Shown here: one piece after another, positions 1 through 49,801 of the stretch | Numbering within the stretch: the stretch's first letter is position 1 | How the letters are laid out: every line of letters begins with the position of its first letter | NCBI RefSeq assembly: GCF_005864045.1 | Contig: NZ_VBSP01000005.1 | Coordinates: forward strand, 1-64,000 | Source of the DNA: Ruoffia tabacinasalis | Lineage (GTDB): Bacteria > Bacillota > Bacilli > Lactobacillales > Aerococcaceae | Length of the DNA stretch: 64,000 nucleotides | Direction of reading: 5' to 3' | Made by a program: the position numbers and the translations under genes | The notes under the pieces: generated by a model | Databases searched by the model: none | The model's input: only the letters and a program-made list of their open reading frames with translations | Told to the model about the DNA's origin: nothing

Positions 1-78
1 ACCAATGTCTATCCTTTAGCAGATATTTATTCAACACCTGCATTACCGCACATCAGAACGATTGAAATTGAAGAGTAG
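1..78 (+). CDS. 3' end of an unidentified gene
   Basis: The last 25 codons and the TAG stop of a gene that begins left of the window are read in frame from base 1. The tail ends in RTIEIEE. I do not recognise the family from so short a piece. The stop is followed by about 50 bp and then the hairpin array at 131, so the array lies in this gene's 3' flank. Confidence 0.55.
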   Translation, partial: TNVYPLADIYSTPALPHIRTIEIEE

Positions 79-130
79 CTGCACTCAAAATGTGGCTCAA
101 ATAGTCCTTGACTATAGGACCAGTTCACCC

Positions 131-274
131 ATTCTTCTCGAGTTGAGCGAACTTGAGAACAATCGGGCGGCCATTCTTCTCGAGTTGGGGGAACTTGAGA
201 ACAATCGAGTGGCCATTCTTCTCGAGTTGAGTGAACTTGAGAACAACCGATACACGATTCTTCCCGAGTTGAAT
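131..274. repeat. 42-bp tandem hairpin array, family 1
   Basis: The word ATTCTTC recurs at 131, 173 and 215, and ATTCTTCC at 257, giving an exact 42-bp period over three full units and part of a fourth. Each full unit holds an imperfect inverted repeat, TTCTCGAGTT and AACTTGAGAA around a 5-base loop (135-159 in the first unit), followed by a linker of about 16 bases. Apparent reading frames across it in several frames are only the repeat translated. It lies between the end of a plus-strand gene and the end of the broken minus-strand exporter gene. Confidence 0.85.
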
Positions 275-316
275 AAACAAAAGACCCCAAATCCGATTCG
301 AATTTGAGGCCAAATT

Positions 317-789: not shown

Positions 790-1552
790 TTAAGAAAACC
801 ATTGTAAAGTCATCGCAATCCCAATTCCAATTCCAATTACAACTGAAATTAGTATGGCTTCAACCGTTCGAACAATTCCCGTTAGTAAATGCCCTTCAAA
901 TAAATCTCGCATTCCTTACGTAATTGCCAGTCCAGGAACCAATGGCATAATACAGCCAATAATTAAACTATCCAAATTAGCCACAAAGCCCATCCGGTAG
1001 CATATGACTGAAACGAGTGAAATCATAAACGCCGCAATCAAGTCATTAATAAATTTCATTTTCCGTTCGAACGTAAATTCGATTCGAGGTAAAATAACCG
1101 AGTGACCCGATAATAAAAGCGGTCAACACATCACTATACGTTCCACCTAGTAAAAGCATTAACGAAAAGCTAGCTAACCCCGCAGCTAACATCCGGTAAT
1201 ACTTATTGAACTCAGGTGTCTGTAAATCCACTGACTGCAAAGCTTTATAAAGATATATCAAAGAAATTTTACCTTCAGCATACTCACATGAGTAGCGATT
1301 TGTTGCATCAATCTTCTCTAAATTGATTGAACGGTTCCGAGCTTGAGTCATTTGAGAAGTCGATTCATCATTAATACTCATGAAAATCCCAGTCGCTGTC
1401 ACATAACTTTCCGTGTCCAATTTTTTACTATTTTGTGCAATGCGTTGCATCGTATCCTCAACTCTGTACACTTCCGAACCAGACTCCATCATAATTCTTC
1501 CAGCAAGTAGCGCTGTTTTCAGCAGTAAATTTTTATTATCCATCAAAATCAC
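790..1552 (-). pseudogene. Threonine/serine exporter large subunit (DUF1212), frameshift plus in-frame TAA
   Basis: The N-terminal part (start GTG 1552 or ATG 1543) has the DUF1212/ThrE signature: AGRIMMESGSEVYRVEDTM, then membrane segments. The open frame stops at 1046, but the expected continuation (ERKMKFINDLIAAF) is in another frame from about 1075, so there is a single-base frameshift near 1065-1080. The second frame has a TAA at 916-918 inside an otherwise normal motif (PGLAIT, stop, GMRDLF) and ends at 790. The intact protein would be about 250 residues, the usual size. With two lesions here and one in its partner, the exporter is almost certainly non-functional. Confidence 0.82.
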
Positions 1553-1703
1553 ATCTTTCGAATAAGCATAACATAAAATGAGTTACATGCATGAAAACAA
1601 AGCTTAAAATAATATCACTGAGGTAGTGGAACTAGTTATAGGAAAAGTATCTGATAATTGGGTTAGCAAACTCTATTTTCAGATGTAGTGCCCGCTACTC
1701 ACA

Positions 1704-1741
1704 TTACCTCATACAATCTGAACTTATTGTACGAGCTATCC
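1704..1741. repeat. Dispersed 38-bp palindromic element, copy 1
   Basis: The element matches 36 of 38 positions at 16128-16165. It contains the inverted repeat CTCATACAAT and ATTGTACGAG around an 8-base loop. There is no T-run directly after the stem in the second copy, so it is not simply a terminator. The rest of 1553-1795 holds no gene that I can see. Confidence 0.6.
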
Positions 1742-1795
1742 TTTTTTTGAGTTTAGTATGGTAAGCTTAAATAAAATTAAATGGAGGTGTCACTT

Positions 1796-2595
1796 ATGGA
1801 TAGAAAAAACATTCAAATGATCGAATAGCGACGAAAAATTAATGACAATCTGTTTTTAAGCGTCATTATTAGTTTCAAAAGGCTATCTGCGGGTCCAATT
1901 TTTCGGGATGCATCTGGGGAAAATAAAAAAAATAATGACTTGTTATTTATTCGTCATTTTTCAGAAGAAGATTTAAATAGATATTTAGATGAATTAGAGG
2001 CACTTGATTTCTTCAATTGGCCGTCCCATCAGTATTCAGATCTAGACTCCGTTTCGGACATTCTTAATTTTATTGTCCTTGACGGCTCAGTTAATTATAT
2101 ATTTGGTATGCCTCTGCAAACTGAAAAAATGGTTGCCACCCATAAAGCAACAGAAAAACTCCTTCAGATGTCAATTGGTAGTGAAACAGACTTTAGTGAT
2201 TTTGATATAATTAGCGATTATAATGAGCTTTCTTTTTTAACGTTTAATGTCGAGGGAACCAAAAACGAATACTATGATATCACTATTGATATGAATCATA
2301 ATGTCTATTATCTAGAAGTATCAGATAGCTTTGGCAGATTAGTAGCAGAGAATAAAACAGGTTCCCTCCGAACATCTACAATCAAAAAACTGAGGAAGAA
2401 ATTGCTTAAGTTAGACTTACTGTCGTGGCCGATCGAAACTGAGAAGGTGGACATGATTAATCCTAGTAAGCCTTTTATACAATATAGTTTTGAAGTTTTG
2501 AATTCATAACCTTTGGAGACCCGACCGAACCAAATCATCTGGCAGAAGTCCATAAAGCAATTGAACTTCTCATTAGCCAACCTTTTGGGAGTTAG
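1796..2595 (+). pseudogene. Unrecognised protein gene with early TAG and 3' frameshift
   Basis: A strong ribosome site (GGAGGTG) precedes ATG 1796. Ten codons later an in-frame TAG (1826-1828) interrupts a frame that otherwise stays open from 1829 to a TAA at 2507-2509. A continuation in another frame (GDPTEPNHLAEVHKAIELL) runs to a TAG at 2593-2595. That tail resembles an internal segment (GMPLQTEKMVATHKATEKLL), so the intact protein probably had two related halves, about 265 residues in all. No signal peptide or membrane segment is seen. I cannot assign a family. Two independent lesions make it a pseudogene. Confidence 0.6.
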
Positions 2596-2620
2596 GAATG
2601 GTATCGTAAATAGCCAAAAT

Positions 2621-2675
2621 AAAAACAGCCTTTACCATCCAACATTTAGAAAATGGATGATAAAGGCTGTTTTTA
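2621..2675. terminator. Bidirectional terminator
   Basis: An A-run and long stem (AAAAACAGCCTTTACCATCC pairing with GGATGATAAAGGCTGTTTTT) lies between the convergent ends of the broken plus-strand gene and the minus-strand ATPase gene. T-runs are available on both strands. Confidence 0.85.
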
Positions 2676-2694
2676 TAAATTTATGATTACGACT

Positions 2695-3828
2695 CTACTT
2701 CGCTGCAACTGCAGCCTTCTTCGCATTCCGAATCACAACTTCACTGTCTTTATCAAAGAAGTGAGCTTTATTCATATCGAATGCCATTGTGATTGATGAG
2801 CCGGGTTCACGGTAATCACGCGCATCCACTCTGGCAATAAATTCTCTATTTCCAGAGTTTAAATATAACATTGTTTCAGAACCGAGTAATTCAGAAACTG
2901 TAATCGCTGCATCAAGCAACGTACTTGGATTCGCATCAATAAAAATTTGTTCTGTGTGGATATCCTCTGGTCTTAAACCAAAGATTAATTCTTGATGATT
3001 GTATCCTTCTGCAGCCAATAGTCTTTTATCTGGTTCAGAAACTTCTATTTGTGTACCATCATCCATCGTAATAAAGCCGTCATTATACTCCACACTGAAG
3101 AAATTCATAGAAGGAGATCCGATGAAACTACCAACAAAAACATTGACTGGATTATCATAAACTTCAACGGGTGTACCAATTTGTTGAATGTAGCCATCTT
3201 TCATAATAACGATACGAGTAGCCATTGTCATTGCCTCAGTTTGATCATGAGTGACATAAATTGTAGTTGTTTGAAGACGTCTATGTAACTTTGCAATTTC
3301 AGTACGCATTTGAACACGAAGTTTCGCGTCTAAGTTAGATAAAGGTTCATCCATTAAGAAGACGTCAGCATCCCGCACAATTGCACGCCCTAAAGCAACC
3401 CTTTGTCTTTGTCCACCAGATAATGCTGCTGGTTTTCGATCTAAATAATCAGTCAAGCCTAGAATGTCTGCTGCATTTTTTACACGTTCTTCAATTTCTT
3501 TTTTATTATATTTTCTTAATTTTAAACCGAATGCCATGTTATCGTAGACTGTCATATGAGGGTATAAAGCATAATTTTGAAAGACCATCGCAATCCCTCT
3601 ATCTTTTGGAGCGACTTCATTCATCAACTTTCCGTCAATGTGTAATTCTCCTTCAGTAATATCCTCTAACCCCGCTATCATACGCAAAGTCGTTGACTTT
3701 CCACAACCAGACGGTCCTACGAATACAATAAATTCTTTATCTTCAATGTCTAAGTTAAAGTCCGTTACAGCATTTCTATCATTACCTTCATATTGTTTCC
3801 CTAAATTTTTTAAGTTAATATCTACCAT
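2695..3828 (-). CDS. msmK: MsmK/UgpC-type sugar ABC transporter ATPase
   Basis: This 377-residue cytoplasmic ATPase energises CUT1-class sugar importers. Walker A is GPSGCGKST (about residue 38), the signature is LSGGQRQRVALGRA, Walker B is VFLMDEPLSNLDAKLR, and a C-terminal TOBE/OB-fold region (from about 240, with FGLRPEDI) is present. The length is normal for MsmK/MalK. AGGAAGGA precedes the ATG. It is the last gene of the LacI-headed operon whose permeases and binding protein lack their own ATPase, so it probably powers that importer. MsmK proteins often serve several sugar importers, so wider use is possible. The terminator at 2621-2675 follows. Confidence 0.9.
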   Translation of the reverse strand: MVDINLKNLGKQYEGNDRNAVTDFNLDIEDKEFIVFVGPSGCGKSTTLRMIAGLEDITEGELHIDGKLMNEVAPKDRGIAMVFQNYALYPHMTVYDNMAFGLKLRKYNKKEIEERVKNAADILGLTDYLDRKPAALSGGQRQRVALGRAIVRDADVFLMDEPLSNLDAKLRVQMRTEIAKLHRRLQTTTIYVTHDQTEAMTMATRIVIMKDGYIQQIGTPVEVYDNPVNVFVGSFIGSPSMNFFSVEYNDGFITMDDGTQIEVSEPDKRLLAAEGYNHQELIFGLRPEDIHTEQIFIDANPSTLLDAAITVSELLGSETMLYLNSGNREFIARVDARDYREPGSSITMAFDMNKAHFFDKDSEVVIRNAKKAAVAAK

Positions 3829-3842
3829 TCTAGTATTCCTTC

Positions 3843-4607
3843 CTATTCTAAAGTTTCTTTAACATCAATGTTTGAATCCTCATTATTAAGATTGAGAAGT
3901 GCATCAGACAAAACTTCAATAATATACAATGATGGAATTTGACTCGTTAAATCTTCATGCTGTTTCAACCTGACAAATGGCACTCTATAATCCAAAACAT
4001 AATCACTCATCAATGCTAAATTGCTATCCGCGTTGGCGGTTATCGCAACGATTTTATAATCTAAGTTATTCTTGAATCCATTAACCATTTCCAATATCTC
4101 CGTTGTCATACCAGTGATCGATAGGACAAAAATAATATTTTCAGTTGTATTTCTTAGTTTAGAAAAAATTGGAAACGTCGGATCTGTCATCGCGTATGTA
4201 TTATATCCAAGTATTGCTAATCGCCTCGCAGCATACTCACACATCGTTCCAGAGGAACCGATACCAAAAAATATAATATTTTCACAACTCTGTACTTGCT
4301 CAGCAATGGTTAGAATGCGTGTTTCAAAGTCATTTGGAAAATTAGAATCATCTAAATAATTTTTTGAAACGAATAACTCATTTTTTTCTACTTCAGAAGA
4401 TTTAAAATGCGTTCTAAATTCAGTGTAACTGTCGTAACCGACTTTTCGAATAAAGCGCATCACTGAAGAGGATGACGTATGTGACTCATTCGCAATATCC
4501 CTCACACGCATAAAAGGTATTTTGTCCGAATTACTTGACATGTAATGATGTATCGCCCGCTCAGTCTCAGATAAACTATTAAAATCTAATTTTCCAAAAA
4601 ATGACAT
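3843..4607 (-). CDS. RpiR/MurR-family transcriptional regulator
   Basis: The protein has 254 residues: an N-terminal HTH_6 domain (residues 1-75, with SHTSSSSVMRFIRKVGYDSY) followed by a SIS sugar-phosphate isomerase domain (from about 115, with IIFFGIGSSGTMCEYAARRL). The family binds phosphorylated sugars through the SIS domain and controls sugar catabolic genes. GGAAG precedes ATG 4607. It lies between the GH30 gene and the ATPase in the same operon, 14 bases from each. An operon with both a LacI regulator (12053) and an RpiR regulator suggests two effectors, perhaps the free and the phosphorylated sugar; this is inference. Confidence 0.88.
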   Translation of the reverse strand: MSFFGKLDFNSLSETERAIHHYMSSNSDKIPFMRVRDIANESHTSSSSVMRFIRKVGYDSYTEFRTHFKSSEVEKNELFVSKNYLDDSNFPNDFETRILTIAEQVQSCENIIFFGIGSSGTMCEYAARRLAILGYNTYAMTDPTFPIFSKLRNTTENIIFVLSITGMTTEILEMVNGFKNNLDYKIVAITANADSNLALMSDYVLDYRVPFVRLKQHEDLTSQIPSLYIIEVLSDALLNLNNEDSNIDVKETLE

Positions 4608-4622
4608 GTTCCACTTCCTTTT

Positions 4623-5948
4623 CTATCCTTCAAACACGACAGTGAGCGCCGACTTTGCTTTGAGAGACACTACCGAGTCGACATCACCGGTTAATTGAAC
4701 TACTTTTTGCTCATTTGAATCATTGAATAAGATAACAACGAGTGAGTGATCAATATTTTCAAAAGAAACGGTCTTAATAGTATCTTCCTCACTACTGAAT
4801 ATTCTACTTGCACCCGGTCTAACAAATTTACTGAAATGGGCCAATCCATAATAATCGAGTGTATACTCATATTCTTTTGTTAATTGATTGATTTTTAATA
4901 AACCGCGGCACGTACTTTCACCAAAGCCTGGGACGGTTGGTCCATTGTTTTCATCTAATGCCATATTCCATAATATAAATGATTTTGACCCATGCCTCAT
5001 AATATCTATACCTGTTCGCATAAGGTTACTGAAAGCGAGTTCAAACTCAGGAATCCATTCTCCGCCAGATCCCTCAGTAAAGTGAATTTCTTTGTCTGGG
5101 AAAAACTGTTGGACTCTTGCTTGATTGATTGCTTTTCCACCATACCAATGCCAAGCAATACCATCCAAATTATCTGCCGCTTCGTCTAATAACGTGATTG
5201 GGTAATCGATTCGATCCCAATTATGATCATAGCCAAAAATCTTCGTAGCGTGCCCTGCTTTATCTAAGGTTGGTTTAAGGTAGTCCGATATGAACGTTGC
5301 CGCTTCTTCAGCCAATAATTCCATTCCTGGATAATGAGGGGGTACAAACAACGGTTCATTTTGTGGTGTGATCCCATAAACTGAGATACCTTCGTTTTTA
5401 TAGGCCTGTATGAATTTCTCAAAATACCTTGCATAGACCTCATAATATTCCTCTAACAACTTTCCGCCAATCATACTCTTGGTTGTTTTCATCCATGCTG
5501 GTGCACTCCATGGCGATGCCATGAGTTTTAAGTCAGGATTAAGTTCCATGGCCCATTTAGTTAAAGGTAAAATACTTTCCCTATCATGATCAATTGTAAA
5601 CTGGGTCAACTCTAAATCCGTTTGACCCTCTTCTATATCGTTATAACTATAGATAGAGCGTGAATAATCAGATGCCCCCATTGGATTACGAACTAGCGAC
5701 AAACCAATACCATCATTATCAGCAAATAAGTGTGTCATTACCTCTTCTTTATCTTTATCTGAAAGGACTTTATCGATTAAATACGCTGAACTATCTGTAA
5801 AGGACGCACCAAAGCCATCTATTTTTTGATAGGTTTGCTTTTTATTAATTTCAATTGCTATGACATCAGATGATGTATCTACATCCGACATCTCGATTGC
5901 TTTAAAGAGATGGTTTCTATCATATGATTCATATATTTTTTGTGTCAA
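4623..5948 (-). CDS. GH30 glycosidase (glucosylceramidase-like)
   Basis: This is a 441-residue glycoside hydrolase of family 30. The N-terminal GFGASFTDSSAYLIDK motif is typical. The acid/base is Glu198 in TPQNEPLFVP and the nucleophile is Glu292 in HFTEGSGGEW. A small C-terminal beta domain follows from about 370. No signal peptide is present, so the enzyme is cytoplasmic and probably acts on imported beta-glucosides or beta-1,6-glucan fragments rather than on ceramide; exact specificity cannot be read. Translation starts at TTG 5948 (AAGGTG site 8 bases upstream), overlapping the TGA of the DUF624 gene, which implies translational coupling. Confidence 0.9.
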   Translation of the reverse strand: MTQKIYESYDRNHLFKAIEMSDVDTSSDVIAIEINKKQTYQKIDGFGASFTDSSAYLIDKVLSDKDKEEVMTHLFADNDGIGLSLVRNPMGASDYSRSIYSYNDIEEGQTDLELTQFTIDHDRESILPLTKWAMELNPDLKLMASPWSAPAWMKTTKSMIGGKLLEEYYEVYARYFEKFIQAYKNEGISVYGITPQNEPLFVPPHYPGMELLAEEAATFISDYLKPTLDKAGHATKIFGYDHNWDRIDYPITLLDEAADNLDGIAWHWYGGKAINQARVQQFFPDKEIHFTEGSGGEWIPEFELAFSNLMRTGIDIMRHGSKSFILWNMALDENNGPTVPGFGESTCRGLLKINQLTKEYEYTLDYYGLAHFSKFVRPGASRIFSSEEDTIKTVSFENIDHSLVVILFNDSNEQKVVQLTGDVDSVVSLKAKSALTVVFEG

Positions 5949-6556
5949 TTAAGTTCACCTTCTTCTACGGTCATTTGAAATCGGTTGATACAGTACTCGT
6001 ATATCTTTACTTGAATCATCATTGGCACACTCACGCCAAAGAAAAACCAGATAAACATTAACTTAGGTAAAAATATGGGTATTAACAATGAAATAACAAT
6101 ACTACTCAAACTTATACAAAAGAACCCTGTGTATTTCAGTGTTAAAAACACTGCGAATTGAATATTTTTAAACAAAGCTAGATTAAAATACGCAACAGTT
6201 AAGAATGTATTCATCACAACAATGATAAAAAAGGATAAGACGAGCAGCAATAAAAATTGGATCGGTGAATCTAATGTCAGTGAAATGACACCAACAAGAA
6301 ACGCTCCAAGCGCTGCATAGACTAATGCGAGCAGCGATCCCGTAAATAGATTCGCTTTAAAGCTGTTTAAAAATTCTTTCATCGTTGGGTTACTTTTATC
6401 TAATTTGAATATTAAGTGATAACCAGCACTTACGGCACTCCCCATCGTGACGATAGGGAGGCTAAATATTACGGTTAGGACGTTTATAATAAGTAAGTTA
6501 TAAACCGTATTCAAAAATTGATAAACGCCACCATCTAGACTGAATATTTTTTTCAT
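5945..6556 (-). CDS. DUF624 (YesL-type) membrane protein
   Basis: This 203-residue integral membrane protein has about five hydrophobic segments and begins MKKIFSLDGGVYQFLNTVYN, with NVLTVIFSLPIVTMGSA, which is typical of the DUF624/YesL family. Such genes accompany CUT1 sugar importers and glycosidases in Firmicutes. The molecular role is not established; a part in transporter assembly is a guess. It lies between the binding-protein gene and GH30 and overlaps the latter by 4 bases. Confidence 0.82.
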   Translation of the reverse strand: MKKIFSLDGGVYQFLNTVYNLLIINVLTVIFSLPIVTMGSAVSAGYHLIFKLDKSNPTMKEFLNSFKANLFTGSLLALVYAALGAFLVGVISLTLDSPIQFLLLLVLSFFIIVVMNTFLTVAYFNLALFKNIQFAVFLTLKYTGFFCISLSSIVISLLIPIFLPKLMFIWFFFGVSVPMMIQVKIYEYCINRFQMTVEEGELN

Positions 6557-6593
6557 AAGTGATAACGATCCTTTCTAATTCAACCATTCTTTG

Positions 6594-8216
6594 TTATTCA
6601 AGACCTAATTTTTCTCGATTAAGGTTCATTTTTTCATTTCTAATATCAACAATGCCATCCCAGCCATTTTCATCTAAAAACGCTTCATAATTAGCTAGTA
6701 TACTATCAAACTCATCATCGCTTGAAGAACGAATTAAACTGACTAATGTTGTATTCCAATTAGTGTTAATTGCAGATAAATTACGTGCTTCTTGCGTACC
6801 CGGCTCTGCATCAATATTTTCTAATACAAAGTGAGGATAGAGTAATCCTTCTCCCCATTCACGCGGCTGAATTAATGCAGGTGTTTGCATTGAGTCGCTC
6901 CCTAATGCCTGATATTTATCATGGCCGAAGAAAATAAACTCACCTAAGCGATACTCAGTTTTATAACGTTCTGAATCATTGTCTTTAATTTCTTGTATCT
7001 CTGGAAGTAAGACAATTTTTCCTTCTTCATCATATTCAAACGTCTCACCTTCAACACCAAATGAAGTTAGAATACCACCATATTCACTTTGTAAATATGT
7101 AAAGACTTGCATTACTTTTGCAGGATCTTCTGTTGTTTTACTAATGTAGTTAATCATCCAGCCAGTAATCCCACTTTGATTTAATTTCGGATCATTACCT
7201 TCACTATGTTGTGGTCCGTCAATAGCAATATATTCAGCGCCTGGATTCGCAGCTAACCAAGTTTGTAAAGCACCACTCAGTTGAGCAATCCCGCTGATCA
7301 TAAGCGTTCCATATTGTCCTGATTTTACTTTTTCATCGAAAGCCGTTCCGTCATCTGAGAAACTATCATCTGAGATATTACCATCTGAATGAACCTGTCT
7401 TAATGTTCTTAGCCAACCCAAATATTCTTCATCTAAGTTTCTATTTTTAAAACTTCCATCTTCATTAACTAAGTCAACACCCAAGAAGTCTTGGAATACG
7501 TCCCCTAATGAGCCCGTACCTTCACCTAAATCATTGAATCCTAATGGAATTAAGTCAGGGTATTCTTCACTCATTTGTTCCATTGAAGCAATAAATTCTT
7601 CTGGCGTTCCAAAGTCCGGTTCTCCCATGGCTTCATACACATCTTTTCTAATTAAAAAGTTCGTATTTGCTGGAATCATGCCACTTTCATAATCTGCTGC
7701 TGTATTCGAATAGTTTGGATAGCCGTATGTATTACCATCCTCTAGTTGGAACCAATTCAATGTATCTTCGGCAGCCACTTCATTCCAGTATGGATCGTAT
7801 TTTTCTGCCAACTCGTCTAATGAATATGCCCAAGTACTTGCTTGTTTTGCAACTTGAGAGTTCGAATCAAAGACAGTCACAATATCAGCCACATCTTCAC
7901 CTGAAAACATCGTATTTAAATTAGTATCGTCACCTTTAATAAAATTCACTTTAATATTTAAATCTTCTTCCATCTTTTTAGTAACTATATCTTCTCCCCA
8001 TGAATCATTCCACCAATCAGCGTTTACGTACCACGTTAACTCTGTCACTTCTTCTTTTGTATCTAATTGCCATGCTGGGGTAGTGGCATCTAATTCATAA
8101 CGATCTTCAGCACTGTTCGCCACGATTTCCTCACTAGAGTTGTTCCCACATGCTGCTAATAAAAAGGCTGAACCTGCCAGTAAGATACTTTTACCAATTA
8201 TTTTTTTTAATGTCAT
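6594..8216 (-). CDS. Sugar ABC transporter substrate-binding lipoprotein
   Basis: The protein has 540 residues. The N-terminus is a lipoprotein signal peptide with the lipobox FLLAACGNN (Cys23), so it is anchored on the outer face of the membrane. The rest is a family 1 extracellular solute-binding protein, including TELTWYVNADWWNDSWGED and MISGIAQLSGALQTWLAANP. The length fits the LplA/YtcQ-like subgroup that works with LplB/YtcP-type permeases, which are encoded directly upstream. The ligand is probably an oligosaccharide cleaved by the GH30, GH3 and GH1 enzymes nearby; this is inferred from position only. Confidence 0.9.
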   Translation of the reverse strand: MTLKKIIGKSILLAGSAFLLAACGNNSSEEIVANSAEDRYELDATTPAWQLDTKEEVTELTWYVNADWWNDSWGEDIVTKKMEEDLNIKVNFIKGDDTNLNTMFSGEDVADIVTVFDSNSQVAKQASTWAYSLDELAEKYDPYWNEVAAEDTLNWFQLEDGNTYGYPNYSNTAADYESGMIPANTNFLIRKDVYEAMGEPDFGTPEEFIASMEQMSEEYPDLIPLGFNDLGEGTGSLGDVFQDFLGVDLVNEDGSFKNRNLDEEYLGWLRTLRQVHSDGNISDDSFSDDGTAFDEKVKSGQYGTLMISGIAQLSGALQTWLAANPGAEYIAIDGPQHSEGNDPKLNQSGITGWMINYISKTTEDPAKVMQVFTYLQSEYGGILTSFGVEGETFEYDEEGKIVLLPEIQEIKDNDSERYKTEYRLGEFIFFGHDKYQALGSDSMQTPALIQPREWGEGLLYPHFVLENIDAEPGTQEARNLSAINTNWNTTLVSLIRSSSDDEFDSILANYEAFLDENGWDGIVDIRNEKMNLNREKLGLE

Positions 8217-8234
8217 TATTTTTCCTTCTTTCTA

Positions 8235-9119
8235 TTATTCTTTAACTGCGCCGACCATCATTCCAGAAATAAAGTGTTTTTGTAGTAATGGATAAATCAG
8301 TAATATTGGAATCGTTGTTACGACAATCGTTGCTAACTGAACACCTTTTGTCGTACTTTGGGCAACTGCCGTTCCTATATTTTGCATTCCCTGAGTTTGA
8401 GATTGGACAATGATTTCGTACAACTTCATTTGTAATGGGTATAAGCTTTTATCTGTAATATAAATTCTAGCTGTCATAAAGTCATTCCATTGATTCACTC
8501 CATTAAAAAGAGCTATCGTTGCGAGTGCTGGTTTTGATAAAGGTAGGAAAATTCGTAAGAATATCTTCCAATGCCCTGCTCCATCAATCATGGCTGATTC
8601 TTCTAGAGAAGCAGGAACACTTCTAAAGAAGTTCATTAGAATAATAACGTCATAGTAACTTAAGAGTGCTGGGATAATATATACCCAAAAACTATTCAAC
8701 ATACCTAACTCTCTAATTAAGAGATACATCGGAATCATACCACCTGAGAAAAACATCGTTGTAATTCCCATAGCAGAATATAATTTTCTCCCTTTTAGAT
8801 TTGCTTTACTCATCGCATATGCCATCATGGCACAGAAGAAGACGTGAGTGACTACGCCAATAACTGTCTTAGATATAGAGATAACAAACGCTCTAATCAT
8901 AGAGCTGTCTCTGAACACTACTTTGTAATTCTCTAATGATAGTTCATCCGGCCAAAAAACAAAACTCCCTTTTGCTAGTGCCTGTCCAGATGCGAATGAT
9001 GAAATTAATACATTCCATAAAGGAATAACGATTATTATTGTGAATAACGATAATACAATAATATTAATAACATTAAACAATCGACTATCAACGTCTTTTT
9101 TCATTACTTTACTTTTCAC
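8235..9119 (-). CDS. Sugar ABC transporter permease, MalG/YtcP type
   Basis: This 294-residue inner-membrane permease has six predicted helices. The cytoplasmic coupling motif EESAMIDGAGHWKIFLRIFL is present at about 190-210. The family-typical C-terminus ends in QKHFISGMMVGAVKE. It pairs with the LplB-type permease just upstream (15-bp gap) to form the channel of a CUT1 importer; MsmK (2695-3828) is the likely ATPase. Confidence 0.92.
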   Translation of the reverse strand: MKSKVMKKDVDSRLFNVINIIVLSLFTIIIVIPLWNVLISSFASGQALAKGSFVFWPDELSLENYKVVFRDSSMIRAFVISISKTVIGVVTHVFFCAMMAYAMSKANLKGRKLYSAMGITTMFFSGGMIPMYLLIRELGMLNSFWVYIIPALLSYYDVIILMNFFRSVPASLEESAMIDGAGHWKIFLRIFLPLSKPALATIALFNGVNQWNDFMTARIYITDKSLYPLQMKLYEIIVQSQTQGMQNIGTAVAQSTTKGVQLATIVVTTIPILLIYPLLQKHFISGMMVGAVKE

Positions 9120-9133
9120 ATAATTCTCCTTTC

Positions 9134-10087
9134 TTACAAAACAGATGTGTTGTCATTTAATCTTTTGGTCATCTGATTCGATGCAACTAATAAAATAACC
9201 GACACGAGCGATACACCTAATCCTACAGCTGTAGCATATGAGAAGTCCCCTTGAGCAATACCCATTCGGAAAACGTATGAGTTAATTACTTCTGCTCTGA
9301 CCTGGTTTTGATTATTCATTAATACCATTGTTTGGTCTAAGTTAGATCCAAGCATCCCGCTAATTGTTAAGATAAGGTTCAAGCTAATTATCCCTTTGAG
9401 CATCGGTAGCGTTATTTTTGTAATTTGTTGGAAGCGAGTTGCACCATCAATTTTAGCTGCTTCGTAATATGCCGGGTCAATTTTTGATAAGGTGGCTAAG
9501 TACAATATCGTGCCCCAACCTGTATTTTTCCAAATATCAGATAATACAGCGATCCACCAGTACTTATCCGCCGTGAGTAAGTAATTTTGATTCCTAACTT
9601 CAAAGCCTAACCCAGCAAGAATGGTATTTAATAAACCGGTTGTTGATAGCCAATTAATTAACATTCCACCAAGTACAATCCATGATAAGAAATACGGCAT
9701 ATAAGAAATCGTTTGAACTAGTTTTTTGAAAGGGCCTTGTCTAAGTTCAAATATTAATATTGCGAATATAATTGGCAAACCAAATCCAATGATTAGTTTT
9801 AGGAAACTAATCCCTAACGTATTAATGACTGATTCCCAGAAAAATTTATCATTTAAAATGATTTCAAAATTTTCAAACCCAACCCATTTAGCTGTACCAA
9901 AAGTATCCATAACTGTATAACGTTGAAAAGCAATCACTAAACCGTATATCGGAATAAAGTTAAAGATAATCATAAAAATGATTCCAGGCCATACCATTGT
10001 CTGTAATTCCCACTGATCAAAGAAAGCTTGGAACCAACTCTTGATACTTTTTCTTTGTTTTTTCTTCTGTTTCACTTTCACTTCCAA
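9134..10087 (-). CDS. Sugar ABC transporter permease, LplB/YteP type
   Basis: This 317-residue permease has a basic N-terminus (KVKQKKKQRKSIKS) and six membrane segments. The EAA coupling motif is YYEAAKIDGATRFQQITKIT. The segment GIIFMIIFNFIPIYGLVIAFQ is characteristic of the LplB/YteP subgroup. It is the first transporter gene after the ROK kinase (13-bp gap) and heterodimerises with the 8235-9119 permease. Confidence 0.92.
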   Translation of the reverse strand: MEVKVKQKKKQRKSIKSWFQAFFDQWELQTMVWPGIIFMIIFNFIPIYGLVIAFQRYTVMDTFGTAKWVGFENFEIILNDKFFWESVINTLGISFLKLIIGFGLPIIFAILIFELRQGPFKKLVQTISYMPYFLSWIVLGGMLINWLSTTGLLNTILAGLGFEVRNQNYLLTADKYWWIAVLSDIWKNTGWGTILYLATLSKIDPAYYEAAKIDGATRFQQITKITLPMLKGIISLNLILTISGMLGSNLDQTMVLMNNQNQVRAEVINSYVFRMGIAQGDFSYATAVGLGVSLVSVILLVASNQMTKRLNDNTSVL

Positions 10088-10100
10088 AACAACATCTCCT

Positions 10101-11039
10101 TTATTTCGTCTTTAACTTTAATGACCGTCGAATTGGGTAGACTGCTCCAACAATCCCAGCATCATTTTTTAGCTTAGTTTGCTTTATGGGGGCAATTGTT
10201 TTACCCATCAAATACTTTACGCTATCATGTCTTTGTTCCCATCTAACCAGTTCCTTTTGTAGTCGTGTGAAGAAGTCATTGTTTTCGCTAATTCCTCCAC
10301 CGATTAGAACGACCTCAGGATCAAAAATACTGATTAAATTAATGAGTCCAATCGATAAATCACGGAAGAATTGCTCAATAACCTGCTTTGCTATTGAATC
10401 TGTCATCTCTTGTTCGAAGATAATTCTGGCATCATATATATCTTCAAATTCACTATTCTCTGCTTTTTTAAACTGGTTATATCTCATACACAGTCCACCA
10501 ACGATAGCAGCCCGTTGATTGATTGAAGCTGTTTCGATATTGCCCTTCTCAGGGAGTTCATCAATAATCATCCAGCCAAACTCCCCAGCCATTCCATGGT
10601 GACCGCGGTATATATCACCGTTAATCACTATTCCTCCGCCAACCCCAGTACCTAATACAACACACAAGTAGTTGTCTATACCCTGCGCATTTCCAATCCA
10701 ACGCTCGGCAATTGCTGCGGCGTTAGCATCATTTTCAATCTGAATCGGTATCTGTATATGTTTTTCAAGCTCTACTTTTAAGTTTACACCATACATCGCT
10801 TTCAATGACCCTGCAGTAGTAAAGTATCCATTCTTTTCAATAATACCCGGAGCACTAATTCCAACTGCTTTAATCTCAGGTGTGTCTTCAATGTTTCTTG
10901 TGATAATATTTAGTATATCTTTAATAAAAACGTTTTTATTTTTGCTCGTAGGTATTGAGCTTTTGTTCATCACATCCCCTTCTTCGCTCACTAGACCATA
11001 CTTAATACTTGTACCACCGATATCAATACCTATATACAC
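10101..11039 (-). CDS. ROK-family sugar kinase (glucokinase-like)
   Basis: The protein has 312 residues. The N-terminal phosphate-binding motif is GIDIGGTSIKYG. The sugar-binding region includes ENDANAAAIAERW, and the ATP-binding segment VLGTGVGGGIVING is clear. The region just after it has GEFGWMII, but the usual CXCGXXGC zinc motif is missing, as in some ROK kinases. It probably phosphorylates glucose, or a related sugar, released by the glycosidases. The start is GTG at 11039, preceded by GAGGGA, which also forms the last codons of the LacI gene. The stop of lacI and this start are 3 bases apart, so translation is coupled. Confidence 0.88.
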   Translation of the reverse strand: MYIGIDIGGTSIKYGLVSEEGDVMNKSSIPTSKNKNVFIKDILNIITRNIEDTPEIKAVGISAPGIIEKNGYFTTAGSLKAMYGVNLKVELEKHIQIPIQIENDANAAAIAERWIGNAQGIDNYLCVVLGTGVGGGIVINGDIYRGHHGMAGEFGWMIIDELPEKGNIETASINQRAAIVGGLCMRYNQFKKAENSEFEDIYDARIIFEQEMTDSIAKQVIEQFFRDLSIGLINLISIFDPEVVLIGGGISENNDFFTRLQKELVRWEQRHDSVKYLMGKTIAPIKQTKLKNDAGIVGAVYPIRRSLKLKTK

Positions 11040-11042
11040 AAT

Positions 11043-12053
11043 TTATCCCTCTTCCGTCATTATCATTTTCACGGATTTTCCTTCGATAAGTTCTCCCTCT
11101 AATTCCAAAGACTTTCCAGGCGCATCCGTTTCAATCATGTCAACCAAATGCCTCACAGCACATTGACCTTGTAATTCTATCGGATTGTTAATCGTCGTTA
11201 ATTTTGGCTCAAAGTACTCCAATAACTCAATCCCATCAAAGCCTACAACACTAAAATTATCTGGCACAGTATAACCTAAATCATACAAGCTCTTAATTGC
11301 CCCAATAGCACTCAGATCATTACCTGCTAAAAAAGCTGTTGGATAATCTACTTCTGTCTCCATAAAATATTTTATAGACTCATAAGCTGCTTGTTCTTCA
11401 AATTTCCCCTCCAGAATATAGTCAGCTCTGAATGTTATTCCAGCCTTTTTCAAGGATTTTTTATAACCTTCAAAGCGCTCATCACTATCATAGACACCCG
11501 TAAATCCTGTAATATAAGCGATTTTAGTATGTCCTTTGTTAATCAAATAGTCAGTCGCTATCTCACCTTTGTTCTGGGAATCAAAAACAACACTGCCGAT
11601 TGTTTCAGCCCGGATTTTTCGATCAATGAAAACCGCTTTGATTCCTTTTTGTTTAATAAGTCCTACTTCATCTTCATTAATATAGTCTTCAAAGCCTATA
11701 ATACCGTCAACAACATTCCCCATGATGCTTCGCATCACTACATCTTTATTAGAAGTAATAAACACATTGATCCCATAACCTAATTTGTCCGCCTCTTGAG
11801 CGATTGCCTCAACTAACGGACTAAAGTACGGTCCACTAATACTATTGGTATAAAAGCCTAACATCTTTGTCATTCCAGATTTCAATTGCTTACCCATTAA
11901 GTTAGGGACATAATGTAATTTATTTGCTGCTTCTAATATTTTTTTCTTTGTTTCAGGTTTTACAACATCAACACCATTAAGTGCCTTTGACACAGTTGAT
12001 ATTGATACACTTGCTTCTTTTGCAACATCTCGGATTGTAATTCTTTTGTCCAT
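11043..12053 (-). CDS. LacI-family repressor of the beta-glucoside operon
   Basis: The protein has 336 residues: an N-terminal HTH (TIRDVAKEASVSISTVSKAL, residues 6-25), a hinge helix, and a periplasmic-binding-protein-like effector domain with FDSQNKGEIATDYLI and NDLSAIGAIKSLYDLG. It is the first gene of the operon. Two AAAACGTTTT operators lie upstream, one inside the promoter spacer, so it very probably represses itself and the whole 2695-12053 operon, with a sugar or sugar phosphate as inducer. Confidence 0.92.
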   Translation of the reverse strand: MDKRITIRDVAKEASVSISTVSKALNGVDVVKPETKKKILEAANKLHYVPNLMGKQLKSGMTKMLGFYTNSISGPYFSPLVEAIAQEADKLGYGINVFITSNKDVVMRSIMGNVVDGIIGFEDYINEDEVGLIKQKGIKAVFIDRKIRAETIGSVVFDSQNKGEIATDYLINKGHTKIAYITGFTGVYDSDERFEGYKKSLKKAGITFRADYILEGKFEEQAAYESIKYFMETEVDYPTAFLAGNDLSAIGAIKSLYDLGYTVPDNFSVVGFDGIELLEYFEPKLTTINNPIELQGQCAVRHLVDMIETDAPGKSLELEGELIEGKSVKMIMTEEG

Positions 12054-12064
12054 ATTATCACCAT

Positions 12065-12080
12065 AAAAAACGTTTTCATT
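12065..12080. promoter_or_regulatory. LacI-type operator, downstream copy
   Basis: The palindromic core AAAACGTTTT followed by CATT is repeated at 12130-12144. The two CG centres are 64 bp apart, about six helical turns, suiting a LacI-family looped or dual-site arrangement. This copy lies between the promoter and the repressor's ribosome site. A CcpA cre has a similar core, so dual use is possible. Confidence 0.7.
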
Positions 12081-12120
12081 TTAGTTTGAAAGAATCGATC
12101 GCTTTCTTTAATATATGTAC

Positions 12121-12149
12121 ACTATAAATAAAAACGTTTTCATTATCAA
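12121..12149 (-). promoter_or_regulatory. Promoter of the lacI operon with operator in the spacer
   Basis: Read on the minus strand: -35 TTGATA (12149-12144), a 17-base spacer and -10 TATAGT (12126-12121). The spacer contains the second copy of the AAAACGTTTT operator, so a bound repressor would directly block RNA polymerase. Confidence 0.75.
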
Positions 12150-12196
12150 GTCTTTTATTTCTTTTGGTGCTTATGCCTGCTTTTTGAAACATACTT

Positions 12197-12223
12197 CTCA
12201 ATGGTACAAGCTGTACCATTGAG
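12197..12223 (-). terminator. Perfect 12-bp hairpin after the GH3 gene
   Basis: CTCAATGGTACA and TGTACCATTGAG pair perfectly around a 3-base loop, 9 bases past the GH3 stop. No strong T-run follows, so termination may be weak. It could instead protect the mRNA 3' end or bind a regulator. Confidence 0.5.
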
Positions 12224-12231
12224 GTAATTAC

Positions 12232-14376
12232 TTAATCAGTTAAATGAATACTTCCTATATACATCGCTGATTGACTGTCGAAGCCTAGATATAACTTAAA
12301 CTCACCTACATCCGCTCGCTGTGTCAAATCACTATGAACATAGGCTAAATCTTCTTCTGTGATGATAAATTCAATCTCTTTTTCATCTTTGGCATTCACT
12401 GTTTCTACGCTCCATTTTTTTAACTCGCGCATGGGACGCGTCACCTGTGCTACCACATCTTGTAGATAGAGTTGCACAACCGTCGATCCTTTAATGTGGC
12501 TGATATTTTTTAAATCTGCACCTACTGTTATAGCTTCAGCTCTTGTCATAGTTTCTTTTGACAGAGTGATATGCTCTAAAGTAAATTCTGAATAACTTAA
12601 GCCATGACCAAATGGATATAATGGCGTATTTAATTCATCTAAATATTGCGATATATATTTTTCATTTTTATTATCATTTTTTTTAGGTCGTCCTGTTGAC
12701 ATCTGTGCGTATGTATTAGGTAACTGACCAACCGACCTCGGAAAACTCATTGGAAGCTTAGCTTGTGGATTGGCGTCGCCCATGAGTATGTTGGCAAGGG
12801 CATTCCCGCCTTCACTACCTGGAAACCAAGCTTGGATGATTGCTCTAGCTTCCTCGTTAATATTGCTCAAAGCTAAAGGTCTTCCACTAAATACGATGAC
12901 AATTGTTTTAGCATTTATCTTACTTATTTCTTGAATCAATCTATCTTGTTTACGTGATAATTCGATGTTTACCAAACTAGATCCTTCACCTGATTCATCA
13001 CTCTTTTCACCGACAGCTATAATAACTATATCTAGTTCTTTTGCTAGTTTTTTTGCTTTCTCAATGTACTCATCTGTTATATTTTCATTTTCACTAAAGT
13101 CTAAGGTTGATAAGTTGATACTTTTACTCGCTAATCCATCTGCCAATGATATCGCTTTATCATTTTGTCCCATCCAAGACCACGCGCCCAGAATATCTTG
13201 CGAAGTCGCTTTGGGACCAATTAATCCAACATTTTGACCATTTTTTAATGGAAGTATGCCATCATTTTTTAATAAGACTATTGATCTCTCAGCGATTTTA
13301 CGTGTGCTGTCTCTCAATCCATCGATTGTTTTCTTATCTAATGAATCTTTTTCTAACCCTCTATATGGATCCTCAAATAAGCCTAATGCATTTTTTAGAT
13401 TGAGTACCCTTAATACCGACTCATTTAACTTGTCGAGATTTTCAGCATTAACAATTAAGTTTAAGTGACTCAAATAACTATCACTCATCATATCAATATC
13501 GACACCTGCATCAAAAGCTAGTTCTGCCGATTCATAGCCGTCTTTTGCGACCCCATGTGGTACCAACTCAGCAATACTTGCCCAGTCAGAAATAAGTACA
13601 CCTTCAAAATTCAAGTCTTGCCTTAACGTTTTTTGAATAACTCGTTTATTACCCGATACAGGTATTCCTTGTATCGTGTTGAATGAAGTCATCACTAACT
13701 TAACACCGGCATCAATCGCTGCTTTAAATGCTGGTAGGTAATTCTGATACATCTCGATGTCTGAGATATCAACAGTATTATAATCACGGCCAGCTTGAGC
13801 TGCGCCGTATCCAATAAAATGCTTAACACAGGCTGCCAAGCTATTTTTATCCTTCGCTAAATCCGTCCCTTGGTATCCCTCGATAAAAGCACGTGTAAGG
13901 GCCGCCGATAATATTGGATCTTCTCCATTGGTTTCCATAACACGTCCCCAACGCGCATCTTTTACATAATCTGCATTTGGCGAAAATGTAACATGAATCC
14001 CTGCATTTGTTCCCTCATGGGCTGACAGCCTGGCTGCTTCTTTTATTATGGCCTCATCAAAAGATGAAGCCATTGCCAAAGGAATGGGGAAGATTGTTTC
14101 ATAACCATGAATGATATCTGCCATAAATAACAAAGGAATTTTCAGTCTACTTTGTTCCAGATATTCTTTCTGAATATTATATACTTGTGAGGCTTTCTGA
14201 GTACCCAATATCGAACCTACCCGTGATAATTGCTCTGAATCTAGCTCCCATTCTTTCACGGGACCAGTGATTTCCCCACCTTGTTCAAAAAAATCAGGCG
14301 TCAACTGAACTAATTGGCCAATCTTTTCATCAAGGGTCATCTCATTGAAAAGTGCCACTAAGTCAACTTGCTTCAT
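12232..14376 (-). CDS. GH3 beta-glucosidase (BglX-like)
   Basis: The protein has 714 residues from ATG 14376, chosen because GGAGAG lies 10 bases upstream; a longer frame exists from 14424. The GH3 barrel includes CVKHFIGYGA (about 183) and the nucleophile Asp264 in GVLISDWAS. The second alpha/beta domain has NVGLIGPKA and VFSGRPLAL. A C-terminal fibronectin-III-like domain (from about 600) has YPFGHGLSY before it. There is no signal peptide, so it works in the cytoplasm, removing glucose from imported beta-glucosides. It starts 1 base after the GH1 stop, so the two form an operon. Confidence 0.92.
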   Translation of the reverse strand: MKQVDLVALFNEMTLDEKIGQLVQLTPDFFEQGGEITGPVKEWELDSEQLSRVGSILGTQKASQVYNIQKEYLEQSRLKIPLLFMADIIHGYETIFPIPLAMASSFDEAIIKEAARLSAHEGTNAGIHVTFSPNADYVKDARWGRVMETNGEDPILSAALTRAFIEGYQGTDLAKDKNSLAACVKHFIGYGAAQAGRDYNTVDISDIEMYQNYLPAFKAAIDAGVKLVMTSFNTIQGIPVSGNKRVIQKTLRQDLNFEGVLISDWASIAELVPHGVAKDGYESAELAFDAGVDIDMMSDSYLSHLNLIVNAENLDKLNESVLRVLNLKNALGLFEDPYRGLEKDSLDKKTIDGLRDSTRKIAERSIVLLKNDGILPLKNGQNVGLIGPKATSQDILGAWSWMGQNDKAISLADGLASKSINLSTLDFSENENITDEYIEKAKKLAKELDIVIIAVGEKSDESGEGSSLVNIELSRKQDRLIQEISKINAKTIVIVFSGRPLALSNINEEARAIIQAWFPGSEGGNALANILMGDANPQAKLPMSFPRSVGQLPNTYAQMSTGRPKKNDNKNEKYISQYLDELNTPLYPFGHGLSYSEFTLEHITLSKETMTRAEAITVGADLKNISHIKGSTVVQLYLQDVVAQVTRPMRELKKWSVETVNAKDEKEIEFIITEEDLAYVHSDLTQRADVGEFKLYLGFDSQSAMYIGSIHLTD

Positions 14377-14377
14377 A

Positions 14378-15832
<1,455 letters not shown>

Positions 15833-15836
15833 CTAT

Positions 15837-15858
15837 TTAAACGCTTTCTTAAAGTATA
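15837..15858 (-). promoter_or_regulatory. cre-like site beside the -10 of the GH1-GH3 operon
   Basis: On the minus strand, AAGAAAGCGTTTAA (15850-15837) resembles the CcpA cre consensus and lies between a TATACT -10 (15858-15853) and the ribosome site. CcpA bound here would block transcription. The -35 is not clear. The rest of 15860-16127 shows no gene. Confidence 0.5.
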
Positions 15859-16127
15859 GACATTGGCACACTTGAATCCTAGTGTTAAGTTAGATGTTGG
15901 TTGTTATTTCAACAGAAAGGATAATTATTCTATCGCGGAACAGGGTGTACCAAACTAGATAAACAAGTTATTCTTCTAAATTCACACCAACAAAAATAAC
16001 TCTCACATCAACTGAACATCTGATAGTTTCTAAGCTGGCGCTGATTTGAGACTCTTTTTAATAAATATTTTTAGTTTATGATTATTACGAATTTAACTTC
16101 TATTATCTTGCTACGTTTTAAGTAGGT

Positions 16128-16165
16128 TTACCTCATACAATCTAAACTTATTGTACGAACTATCC
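16128..16165. repeat. Dispersed 38-bp palindromic element, copy 2
   Basis: It matches the copy at 1704-1741 except at two positions. The inverted repeat CTCATACAAT and ATTGTACGAA encloses an 8-base loop. It lies in the roughly 400-bp gene-free stretch between the kinase operon terminator and the GH1 promoter. Confidence 0.6.
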
Positions 16166-16175
16166 AATTTTCCCC

Positions 16176-16210
16176 AACAAAAAAACCATGTTCGTTCACC
16201 GAACATGGTT
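16176..16210 (-). terminator. Rho-independent terminator of the PTS/GH4 operon
   Basis: On the minus strand AACCATGTTCG pairs with CGAACATGGTT and is followed by a T-run. It lies 7 bases past the frameshifted end of the kinase gene, which supports placing that gene's original stop at 16217. Confidence 0.9.
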
Positions 16211-16216
16211 CACTCT

Positions 16217-17577
16217 TTAATTCACTTTAGCAACTGCTAAATATTTCTTATATAAATCACTATAATCCACCGACTCATTTGGCTTCACATGTCATACTCA
16301 TTCTCAAACGGCATGCCTTTAACTACGGCAATACTTCCTAGCGTTTCCGCATTTTCAACGACTGGAATGTATAGTGTGTAACCCAACACATCCGCAAGTA
16401 ATTGCGAGAATGATTCCAACTTAGTAATGCCACCGACAAGTCCGATTGAATCGAACTCAACTAGCTCTTCGAGCAATTCTACGTTGTGCTTAATATTGAA
16501 TATCATCCCCAACATAATCGAAAATAATACGGATTCCCGTGTACTCACACGGGTTAAATCATAGAGATTCCCCGTCGCAAATTCATTCCAAATCGGTGCG
16601 CGTTCTCCGTTTAAATAGGGAACAAACACGGAATCAGTTGCTGGTCTAAGTCCCGCAACAGTATTTAATTCCTCAAAGGTACTATTAAACACACGGTTTG
16701 TCCAAGACAAGACATCCGCTCCATTGTTACTCGGCAAACCAATCAAGTAATGGTCTGGATCAATAGCATAAGAAAAATTTTGATACGCATTGTTTAATTG
16801 TGGACTCTTATGAACGACTCGGACTGCGTGGCTTGTCCCAATCGACAAATCTGCCGCGTTGGGCAAATCTCTGAATACATAATTCGACGAGATCCCATCC
16901 GATGTTCCTACAGATACAGTGGCTTCAATATCGAACAAAGAACTCAAGGCTGGGACATTATAATTTACTGCCTCAATGCGCGGTAGCTGCTTCTCGGCAT
17001 CGATTCCAAGAGTATTAAGTGACTCTTTATCCCAAGTTAATGTGTCTAAATTCAACAATCCACTACTTGAGGCATTACTTAAATCAAGCACCCATTCCCC
17101 AGTCAATCGGTGGAATAAGACATCTTTTAAAGAACCGACCACGATATCTTCCTCAATCAGATCACGTAAATCCATTAACTTGAAGTAAGGATTCATACTA
17201 TGATTTGGCGTACCTGTTCGTTCATACTGGTCTTCCAATTGTTTTGCGGTCATATCCTCTAATGCTTTCACACCACGTTTATCGGCCCAAGTAATCACGG
17301 AACCTACTAAGTTAAAATCATACTCCATAAGTTGAACACTATGCATCGCAGTTGTCAGTATAATTTCTAACTGCCCCACTTGATGACGCTCAATTAATTT
17401 GTTTAAGCCATCTAGAATATGTTCCCAAATTTCATCTAAGTCCATTTCAAATATATCATTTGTACTATGAATCTTTAATTGCGGGTATTTGACTGCACCA
17501 ACCACTTCATGCCCTTTGTTAAACAAGTTAATCTTTATATTCGTTGTTCCTACATCAATACTTGCTATGTGATTCAT
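16217..17577 (-). pseudogene. FGGY-family gluconate-type kinase with C-terminal frameshift
   Basis: FGGY kinases phosphorylate gluconate or other sugars. The N-terminal SIDVGTTNIKINLF, the motif TGTPNHSMNPYFKL (near-identical in gluconokinases) and ATP-site GLVGGITKLESFSQLLADVL support gluconokinase. The open frame ends at 16285 after EYDM, but a 23-codon continuation (VKPNESVDYSDLYKKY...) follows in another frame to a TAA at 16217-16219, right before the terminator. A one-base indel near 16288 therefore removes only the last helix, so some activity may remain. ATG 17577 is preferred over TTG 17580. The start overlaps the dehydrogenase stop. Confidence 0.8.
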
Positions 17578-18480: not shown

Positions 18481-19809
<1,329 letters not shown>

Positions 19810-24078: not shown

Positions 24079-24155
24079 ATTTGGCTTCGTAATGATGCAC
24101 GAAGTCAAATACGAACAAATACCGGCCTGGTGGTATCCCACCAAGCCAAATACCT
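24079..24155. repeat. Worn 41-bp hairpin array, family 4
   Basis: There are two adjacent stem-loops: ATTTGGCTTCGT with ACGAAGTCAAAT (24079-24110), and GGCCTGGTGG with CCACCAAGCC (24124-24147). Their centres are 41 bp apart, and the linker word CAAATAC recurs at 24106 and 24147, also 41 bp apart. A minus-strand open frame across 24049-24246 runs through these stems and is probably not a gene. Confidence 0.6.
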
Positions 24156-35514: not shown

Positions 35515-35523
35515 GTTTTCGGG

Positions 35524-35678
35524 GCGTCGTGTGGTGGCACGACGCTCCGTATTTTCGTTTGCGGTACGTCGTGAGTGAGCTCGACACTACGCATTTGAAT
35601 TTGCGGTACGTCGTGGGCGATCACGACACTACGAAAACGGATTTTCGGTCCATCGCGCTGAGTCACGATGAACCGCAA
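35524..35678. repeat. 42-bp tandem hairpin array, family 2, left copy
   Basis: Four units are seen, with CGTCGTG (or CATCGCG) starting at 35525, 35567, 35609 and 35651, an exact 42-bp period. Each unit has an inverted repeat, CGTCGTG and CACGACG-like arms around six variable bases, joined by linkers such as CTACGCATTTGAATTTGCGG. The array ends in CCGCAAG. Minus-strand frames across it are repeat translations, not genes. Confidence 0.88.
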
Positions 35679-35952: not shown

Positions 35953-36088
35953 CTCTTTGCTTTCATTCTAACATAAACTGAAAATAATGAGGTGAGACAC
36001 TGTGAACACTTACTTACGCGTCTAATTTGAAATGCTTATTAAATTTAACCTATAATGAATGTAAGGCAAACATAATTAAGTTGGCTTT

Positions 36089-36206
36089 GCAGAGCGTCGT
36101 GCTCACTCACGACTCTACGGAAATTGGTTTGCGGTACATTGTAGTCGAGCACGACGCTACGCATTTTGATTTGCGGTACATCGCGCCACTTCACGACGCG
36201 CCGCAA
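36089..36206. repeat. 42-bp tandem hairpin array, family 2, right copy
   Basis: Three units start at 36095, 36137 and 36179, again 42 bp apart. They share the stem (CGTCGTG and CACGAC), the linker TTTGCGGTAC and the end CCGCAAG with the array at 35524, in the same orientation. It lies about 20 bases before the mscS ribosome site and could be in the mscS leader. Confidence 0.88.
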
Positions 36207-36243
36207 GCCCAATAAATAAACATCTAAGGAAAGGAGCTCGTCT

Positions 36244-49789: not shown

Positions 49790-49801
49790 ATTGGTTAATT
49801 A

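Follow-up and report, generated by a model that had tools for sequence, protein, structure and literature searches.

The genome analysed here carries a genuine satellite system that is ruled by length. Its non-coding tandem arrays keep a period of 40–42 bp over sequences that differ from one array to another, and they form a new size class of a published, unexplained kind of repeat. An earlier note on this DNA had proposed that one period is kept over differing sequences and that this is not chance, and the proposal is borne out by the same pattern throughout the genome and in two relatives. The period is a firmer constant than the hairpin.

The window, by which we mean the whole 64-kb stretch of DNA analysed, forms the beginning of contig C5 in G000, a genome of 2.52 Mb in 137 contigs. 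At its left end, a tandem array of a type we call family A occupies positions 129–274, with 42-bp units starting at 131, 173 and 215 and a partial unit at 257. TRF calls this array at 129–272 (period 42, 3.4 copies, 87% matches), and the self-identity of 131–274 at lag 42 (0.87) was reached by 0 of 1000 shuffles, as expected from the 42-bp array reported there. Four other arrays had been listed at 24079, 35524, 36089 and 49802, and the last three stand. Two of them are 42-bp arrays at 35516–35676 and 36084–36208 (lag-42 self-identity 0.68 and 0.64), both missed by TRF at the threshold used. The third, at 49797–49922, is a 41-bp array of the GGAAGAAT...ATTCTTCC type between convergent genes (lag-41 self-identity 0.68; TRF call at 49806–49902, period 41). 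For each of the three, 0 of 1000 shuffles reached the observed value. The region 24079–24147 contains two degenerate hairpins approximately 41 bp apart (lag-41 self-identity 0.46, reached by 1 of 1000 shuffles); it is not a clear array, and at most a decayed one. Nor are all the arrays mutually unrelated, as had been supposed, since those at 35516 and 36084 share GTCGTG...CACGAC units. A scan of the full window at 19 lags between 30 and 54 gave stretches of 65% self-identity or more at lag 41 (4 positions) and lag 42 (31 positions) only.

The comparison set holds three genomes of the same genus, namely G000, G001 and G002. A query with window positions 78–300 matched all three, with no match in the remaining 57 of the 60 genomes. 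Judged by one protein, the nearest named relative is probably Aerococcus agrisoli: the GH4 protein at 18481–19806 is 91% identical to the one of that species, the best among the 80 loci kept, a set that may lack entries for this genome itself or for a very close one. All periods of at least 25 bp were surveyed in 1.34 Mb, comprising 720 kb of G001, 464 kb of G000 and 160 kb of G013, a genome of another genus in the same family. Non-coding tandem repeats numbered 37 in this sample, and 33 of them have a period of 40–43 bp, or 34 if a period of 81 is included as 2×40. The counts by period are 40 (5), 41 (23), 42 (4), 43 (1) and 81 (1), with one each at 31, 70 and 108. Seven further 41–42-bp arrays were left out of the 37; they lie within ORFs made up largely of array, which we judged to be spurious. 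A larger sample of 1.56 Mb (719,790 bp of G001, 556,185 bp of G000 and 287,234 bp of G002) was searched at periods 36–46 and 80–84 only. It returned 64 rows, of which four were removed because they were coding or fell under the cut-off: two had period 36, one had period 39 and is crossed by an open frame, and one had period 81 (C15:19636). Adding the pair of window arrays that TRF had overlooked to the remaining 60 gives a catalogue of 62 non-coding arrays in the three genomes, so the wider search that the earlier note had suggested did find more of them; within the periods searched, all 62 fall at 40–42.

A 70-bp non-coding tandem array between convergent genes in G000 (L042:12806–13028, on C13) is the exception to the 40–42-bp rule in the sample of that genome. 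In G013, an array of period 43 with 64 copies extends over 2.8 kb (L138:16101–18868), again with convergent genes on either side. Among other members of the family, 80-kb samples of each of G006, G010 and G015 contained no such array. The arrays are therefore dispensable. One weak 42-bp array, with 68% matches, was found in G020.

Single linkage divided the arrays into 11 sequence groups, two of which are dropped repeats, and leader clustering with seven G013 types added gave 22 clusters. By unrelated types we mean types without a relation detectable by sequence. Some types match family A at 21–23 of 42 positions in a gapless, in-phase alignment. As far as such alignments can tell, some types may be far-diverged relatives, and their sequence independence could be overstated. 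The best inverted match per consensus unit averages 7.6, against 4.9 in shuffled units. One hairpin per unit had been taken as a constant of the arrays, which is not supported: the dyad is significant in 24 of 41 arrays at p<0.05 (12 of 41 at p<0.01) and not significant in the other 17. Dyads are thus common, not universal. In the window, the dyad score of the array at 131 is 10 versus 5.0 in shuffles (p=0.003), and the dyad of the array at 49802 falls short of significance (p=0.076). AACTC/GAGTT is found in 6 of the 22 types, against a mean of 1.8 in shuffles. A search for a motif common to the 22 types gave AGTTG as the best 5-mer, present in 7 of them and equalled by 128 of 300 shuffles.

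The arrays are not placed evenly among genes. They occur in 23 of 178 convergent gaps versus 30 of 771 other gaps (p=1.8e-5), and they are depleted in divergent gaps (4 of 174, p=0.021); these context tallies, like the strand tallies below, exclude two coding repeats. As in REP elements, the location is extragenic and away from promoters. We further compared orthologous gaps between genomes, counting those with arrays in both members, in one and in neither. The counts are 3, 3 and 85 for G000 and G001 (Fisher p=3.2e-4), 5, 8 and 69 for G002 and G001 (p=3.1e-4), and 5, 1 and 50 for G000 and G002 (p=1.6e-6). In more distant species pairs, the array is often missing from the gap of one member. 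Between the NERD and DUF924 genes, G000 and G002 have a 41-bp CGCCAGCTCA array and G001 has a 40-bp TTCGCATTTA array; a second orthologous gap is occupied by 42-bp arrays of two types. For either gap, the similarity of the arrays between species is at the level of shuffles (p=0.35–0.47); in the remaining co-occupied gaps the arrays can be related to each other, some being strongly diverged. Between species, arrays persist at their sites with altered sequence, and at two sites the sequences can no longer be recognised as related. We also considered an origin from terminators and rejected it, as the NERD/DUF924 site has a terminator-like hairpin apart from the array.

The window opens with the end of an IS3-family element (1–127, + strand), which contains the 3' end of the orfB transposase gene with its stop codon at 76–78 and terminates in ...GGACCAGTTCA. 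The CCC directly after it (128–130) may be a target-site duplication, of which one flank is seen. The bases of window 1–127 also open contigs C10 and C25 and stand reversed at the end of C41. Hallmarks of the IS3 family are orfA and orfB, a DDE transposase (rve), TG...CA ends and a target duplication of 3–4 bp. Full copies in G002 have orfA (Pfam HTH_Tnp_2) and orfB (Pfam rve). Three insertions are bounded by 3-bp direct repeats (CCG, ACA and AAC), and C10/C56 has an imperfect one. The end on the orfB side reads TGAACTGG, with CA at the other strand, and the orfA-side end reads ...CCAGTATA; TG...CA is present at one end only, as far as the ends can be placed. On the open reading frames, ends and duplications together, the element belongs to the IS3 family. 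A tblastn search with orfB against the 80 named loci gave no match at 1e-10.

In G000, G001 and G002, 15 places carry the element or its relics, and matching of the flanks reduces them to nine events. Two lie in G002 (C10:66706 and C11:26099) and four in G000 (C24 with C41, C10 with C56, C25 with C78, and C5, the window). The others are C27 with G002 C11:60993, C7 with G001 C1:667465 and G002 C1:32043, and C17. In all nine inferred events, at least one IS copy abuts or lies within approximately 75 bp of a TRF-called array of period 41 or 42, with the caveats that the joins of G000 contig ends are inferred and that relics may last longer in long gaps. Most copies touch the array; the distance is approximately 28 bp at C25 with C78 and approximately 70 bp at G002 C11:26099. 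Taken singly, the copy at the end of contig C25 has no array, and two relics in G002 have one degenerate unit. For comparison, some 7–13% of the intergenic DNA is no more than 60 bp from an array. The arrays beside the element belong to at least three types, namely family A, TCGAGTGCTCGA and CGTCTTACG. Shuffle tests between the IS-hit types gave p=0.25–0.92, with the exception of TCGAGTGCTCGA against the window array (p=0.033). In family A, the three insertions fall at one phase of the unit, just 5' of (C)ATT. The gap at G002 C10:68282 contains the IS, and the same gap in G001 (278588) contains an array without it. The IS therefore joined an array that already existed.

Inverted repeats in tandem might act in RNA or in DNA. 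Stems that act as RNA are expected to show G.U over A.C on the transcribed strand. For arrays between same-direction genes, consensus columns on the transcribed strand comprise 16 G.U and 16 A.C, and the wobble columns over 59 arrays comprise 44 G.U and 40 A.C. Stem covariation, suggested earlier as a check, did not emerge in family A: over 21 consensus units (the closest 21 of 28 aligned) it is 0.120, equal to the shuffled mean of 0.120, and 241 of 500 shuffles are as high. For this family, that is the outcome which the earlier note had said would refute its proposal. Pairing in this family is 78.6% versus 80.1% in shuffles, and it falls to 26–44% when the partner columns are slid by 1–3 positions, so the inverted repeat itself is real. 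Four of the 14 pairs are invariant, including the AG/CT of the AGTT...AACT core, which argues that sequence is kept rather than pairing. With covariation in family A no higher than in shuffles and neither strand favoured in pairing, the arrays more probably act as DNA than as RNA. Transcribed chains of hairpins could stabilise 3' ends, terminate transcription or act as a sponge for protein or RNA, and the convergent 3' location, the dyads in 24 of 41 arrays and the appearance of 52-nt arrays of B. coagulans in RNA-seq (PMC8625621) would agree with such an element. We consider it unlikely, as neither compensatory changes, assessed in family A only, nor an excess of G.U on the transcribed strand was found, and Rfam at gathering thresholds has no family at the arrays. 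The only Rfam families found in the window were a T-box leader at 48085–48344 (− strand) and a tetrahydrofolate riboswitch at 61298–61400 (+ strand).

The arrays could also be neutral satellites with a mutational ruler, in which replication or repair would add copies about 41 bp at a time, with no selection on length or position. They are homogenised inside and degenerate in their edge units, as expected of tandem exchange; at 3, 8 and 1 orthologous gaps one species only has an array, and the 80-kb samples of three family genomes have none. Co-occurrence at orthologous gaps could be plain inheritance and does not discriminate here. However, no enzyme is known to copy in 41-bp steps, and neutral satellites predict neither convergent enrichment nor IS targeting, although promoter avoidance could yield the former; on balance we find neutrality possible and rather doubtful. 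The earlier note had thought of a replicating element, and a mobile repeat resembling REP/BIME or MITEs, which a transposase spreads, would be of this kind. The same types do occur at many loci, for instance with 22 matches to one family A array in each of G000 and G002, the location is extragenic and 3', and the arrays are targets of an IS, as REPs are (PMC1525189). Mobility nevertheless seems improbable: Y1_Tnp (PF01797), present in 6 of 19 genomes searched, has no match in the four genomes richest in arrays (G000, G001, G002 and G013); orthologous sites have arrays in more than one species; and the IS was added to arrays already in place. Chance or an assembly artefact is scarcely credible. 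The contigs of G000 end at IS copies, hence some flanks are contig ends, but four of the five window arrays were matched by 0 of 1000 shuffles, and the same pattern is found in G001, which has 10 contigs, and in G002.

B-DNA makes one turn in approximately 10.5 bp. We favour, with about an even chance of being right, the reading that the arrays are phased sites on DNA for a putative binding protein, which is the likeliest reason for their length; of a replicating or protein-bound element, the protein-bound half fits best and the replicating half is not supported. The conserved property of these extragenic satellites would be the repeat length, about four turns of B-DNA, and not the sequence. 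Tandem copying, by unequal exchange or slippage, would homogenise each array, and selection would keep successive units on one face of the helix, possibly through cooperative binding by one or more putative nucleoid or topology proteins. The IS may recognise the architecture of the array or its bound protein, and the arrays would be harmless landing sites, by analogy with those of IS1397. Phased binding is favoured because of the period rule, the diversity of sequence, the persistence of sites, the convergent enrichment, the strand symmetry, the lack of covariation in family A and the IS3-family insertions beside arrays in nine of nine events. Against it count the 17 of 41 arrays without a significant inverted motif, the lack of a short motif across types beyond shuffles, the possible far-diverged kinship of types and the samples of G006, G010 and G015 that hold no array. 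Between periods of 40, 41 and 42, moreover, the phase shifts by as much as 0.2 turn for each unit, adding up to most of two turns over ten units unless the local pitch differs.

A bolder form of phased binding, which we put forward tentatively, is an element coded by length and free of sequence. Selection would read spacing in whole turns (approximately 20.5, 41 or 52 bp across Bacillota), sites would stay fixed as their sequence is replaced, and the transposase would read the architecture or the resident protein. If true, this would amount to DNA recognition in bacterial chromosomes by a new principle. Sites that persist with replaced sequence offer experiments made by nature, and an IS able to find arrays that differ in sequence can serve as a probe for their common property.

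The earlier note did not recognise a described family, which is correct for the size class only. Subirana and Messeguer (2021, PMC8161180) describe repeats of constant length and variable sequence, of 52 and 20–21 nt, in 176 Bacillus genomes. The 20–21-nt length is given there as two turns, 'a few' 40–41-nt repeats are related to that class, and a nucleoid protein or a small RNA is offered as explanation. As far as that account goes, those repeats and our arrays are both non-coding, with several sequence families per genome and one constant length, partial conservation between strains, short sequences present with their reverse within the repeat, and an enigmatic function. Constant length over unrelated sequences and a non-coding location in Firmicutes are found here too, whereas the published sizes are not: 40–42 nt is the main class here, in an Aerococcus-like genus. 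Because of this period, we regard the arrays as a variant of the published kind and not as members of the classes set out in that account. Relative to its described content, our additions are the dominant 40–42 class, the persistence of sites with turnover between orthologous gaps, the IS targeting, and the dyad, strand and covariation tests. Why some bacterial satellites have a fixed length is described in the literature as enigmatic, and a class of about four turns beside those of two (20–21) and five (52) makes helical phasing directly testable. The 52-nt satellites of B. coagulans are transcribed, according to the RNA-seq described in PMC8625621; PMC6749651 was consulted as well. Among the best literature matches, no paper dealt with Aerococcus arrays or a dominant 40–42-nt class; a 2020 survey in J Bacteriol by Subirana and Messeguer might report one.

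Two other known systems resemble the arrays in part. The IS3-family elements IS1397 and ISKpn1 are described as inserting into palindromic units of REP/BIME, IS1397 in E. coli (PMC1525189), and REP/BIME sequences with RAYT are reported to have a palindrome consensus tagged with GTAG/CGTC (PMC3733652). Like these units, our arrays are extragenic, carry inverted motifs and are targeted by an IS3-family element. Unlike REPs, which form one recognisable family per type and often have a RAYT, the arrays hit by the IS have no relation to one another in sequence, and the search for Y1 was negative in the four genomes richest in arrays. With CRISPR arrays they share regular spacing and a locus-specific repeat sequence; in contrast to CRISPR, the repetition extends over the entire unit and leaves no unique spacers. 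One locus of Granulicatella seriolae (L173:4323–6402) has a 66-nt period with a constant part of approximately 36 nt and looks like a CRISPR array.

The named loci comprise 80 loci of 4.8–21.3 kb, 1.55 Mb in total. Non-coding arrays of 51–52 bp are present in Alkalibacterium (L181, L191 and L194, with L191:1534–1935), Sedimentibacter (L149:15066–15365) and Robertmurraya (L167 and L175, with L175:19273–19537), and they are the five-turn counterpart of the arrays described here. Other periods are 41 in Amphibacillus (L147), 40 with 20-bp sub-units in Neobacillus (L185) and 103 in Lacticigenium (L141). Dyads are significant in 5 of 7 tested units of 51–52 bp and in 0 of 2 units of 40–41 bp. Samples of G064 (100 kb) and G063 (120 kb) contained no array of 40–42 or 52 bp, though their loci L149 and L147 carry one each.

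Beside the window array at 131, a terminator-like palindrome, CCCCAAATCCGATTCGAATTTGAGG, lies at 285–309 next to the end of a ThrE gene. A ThrE-type exporter pair is located at 317–1552 (− strand). Its ORF at 317–622 encodes 101 aa, versus approximately 153 aa for the relative in G001 (145272–145733), and the window gene may be shortened. Approximately 14 kb of genes (about 1552–16285) separate ThrE from the GH4 region in the window, and at the same place G001 has a gap of only about 400 bp, which contains a 41-bp array.
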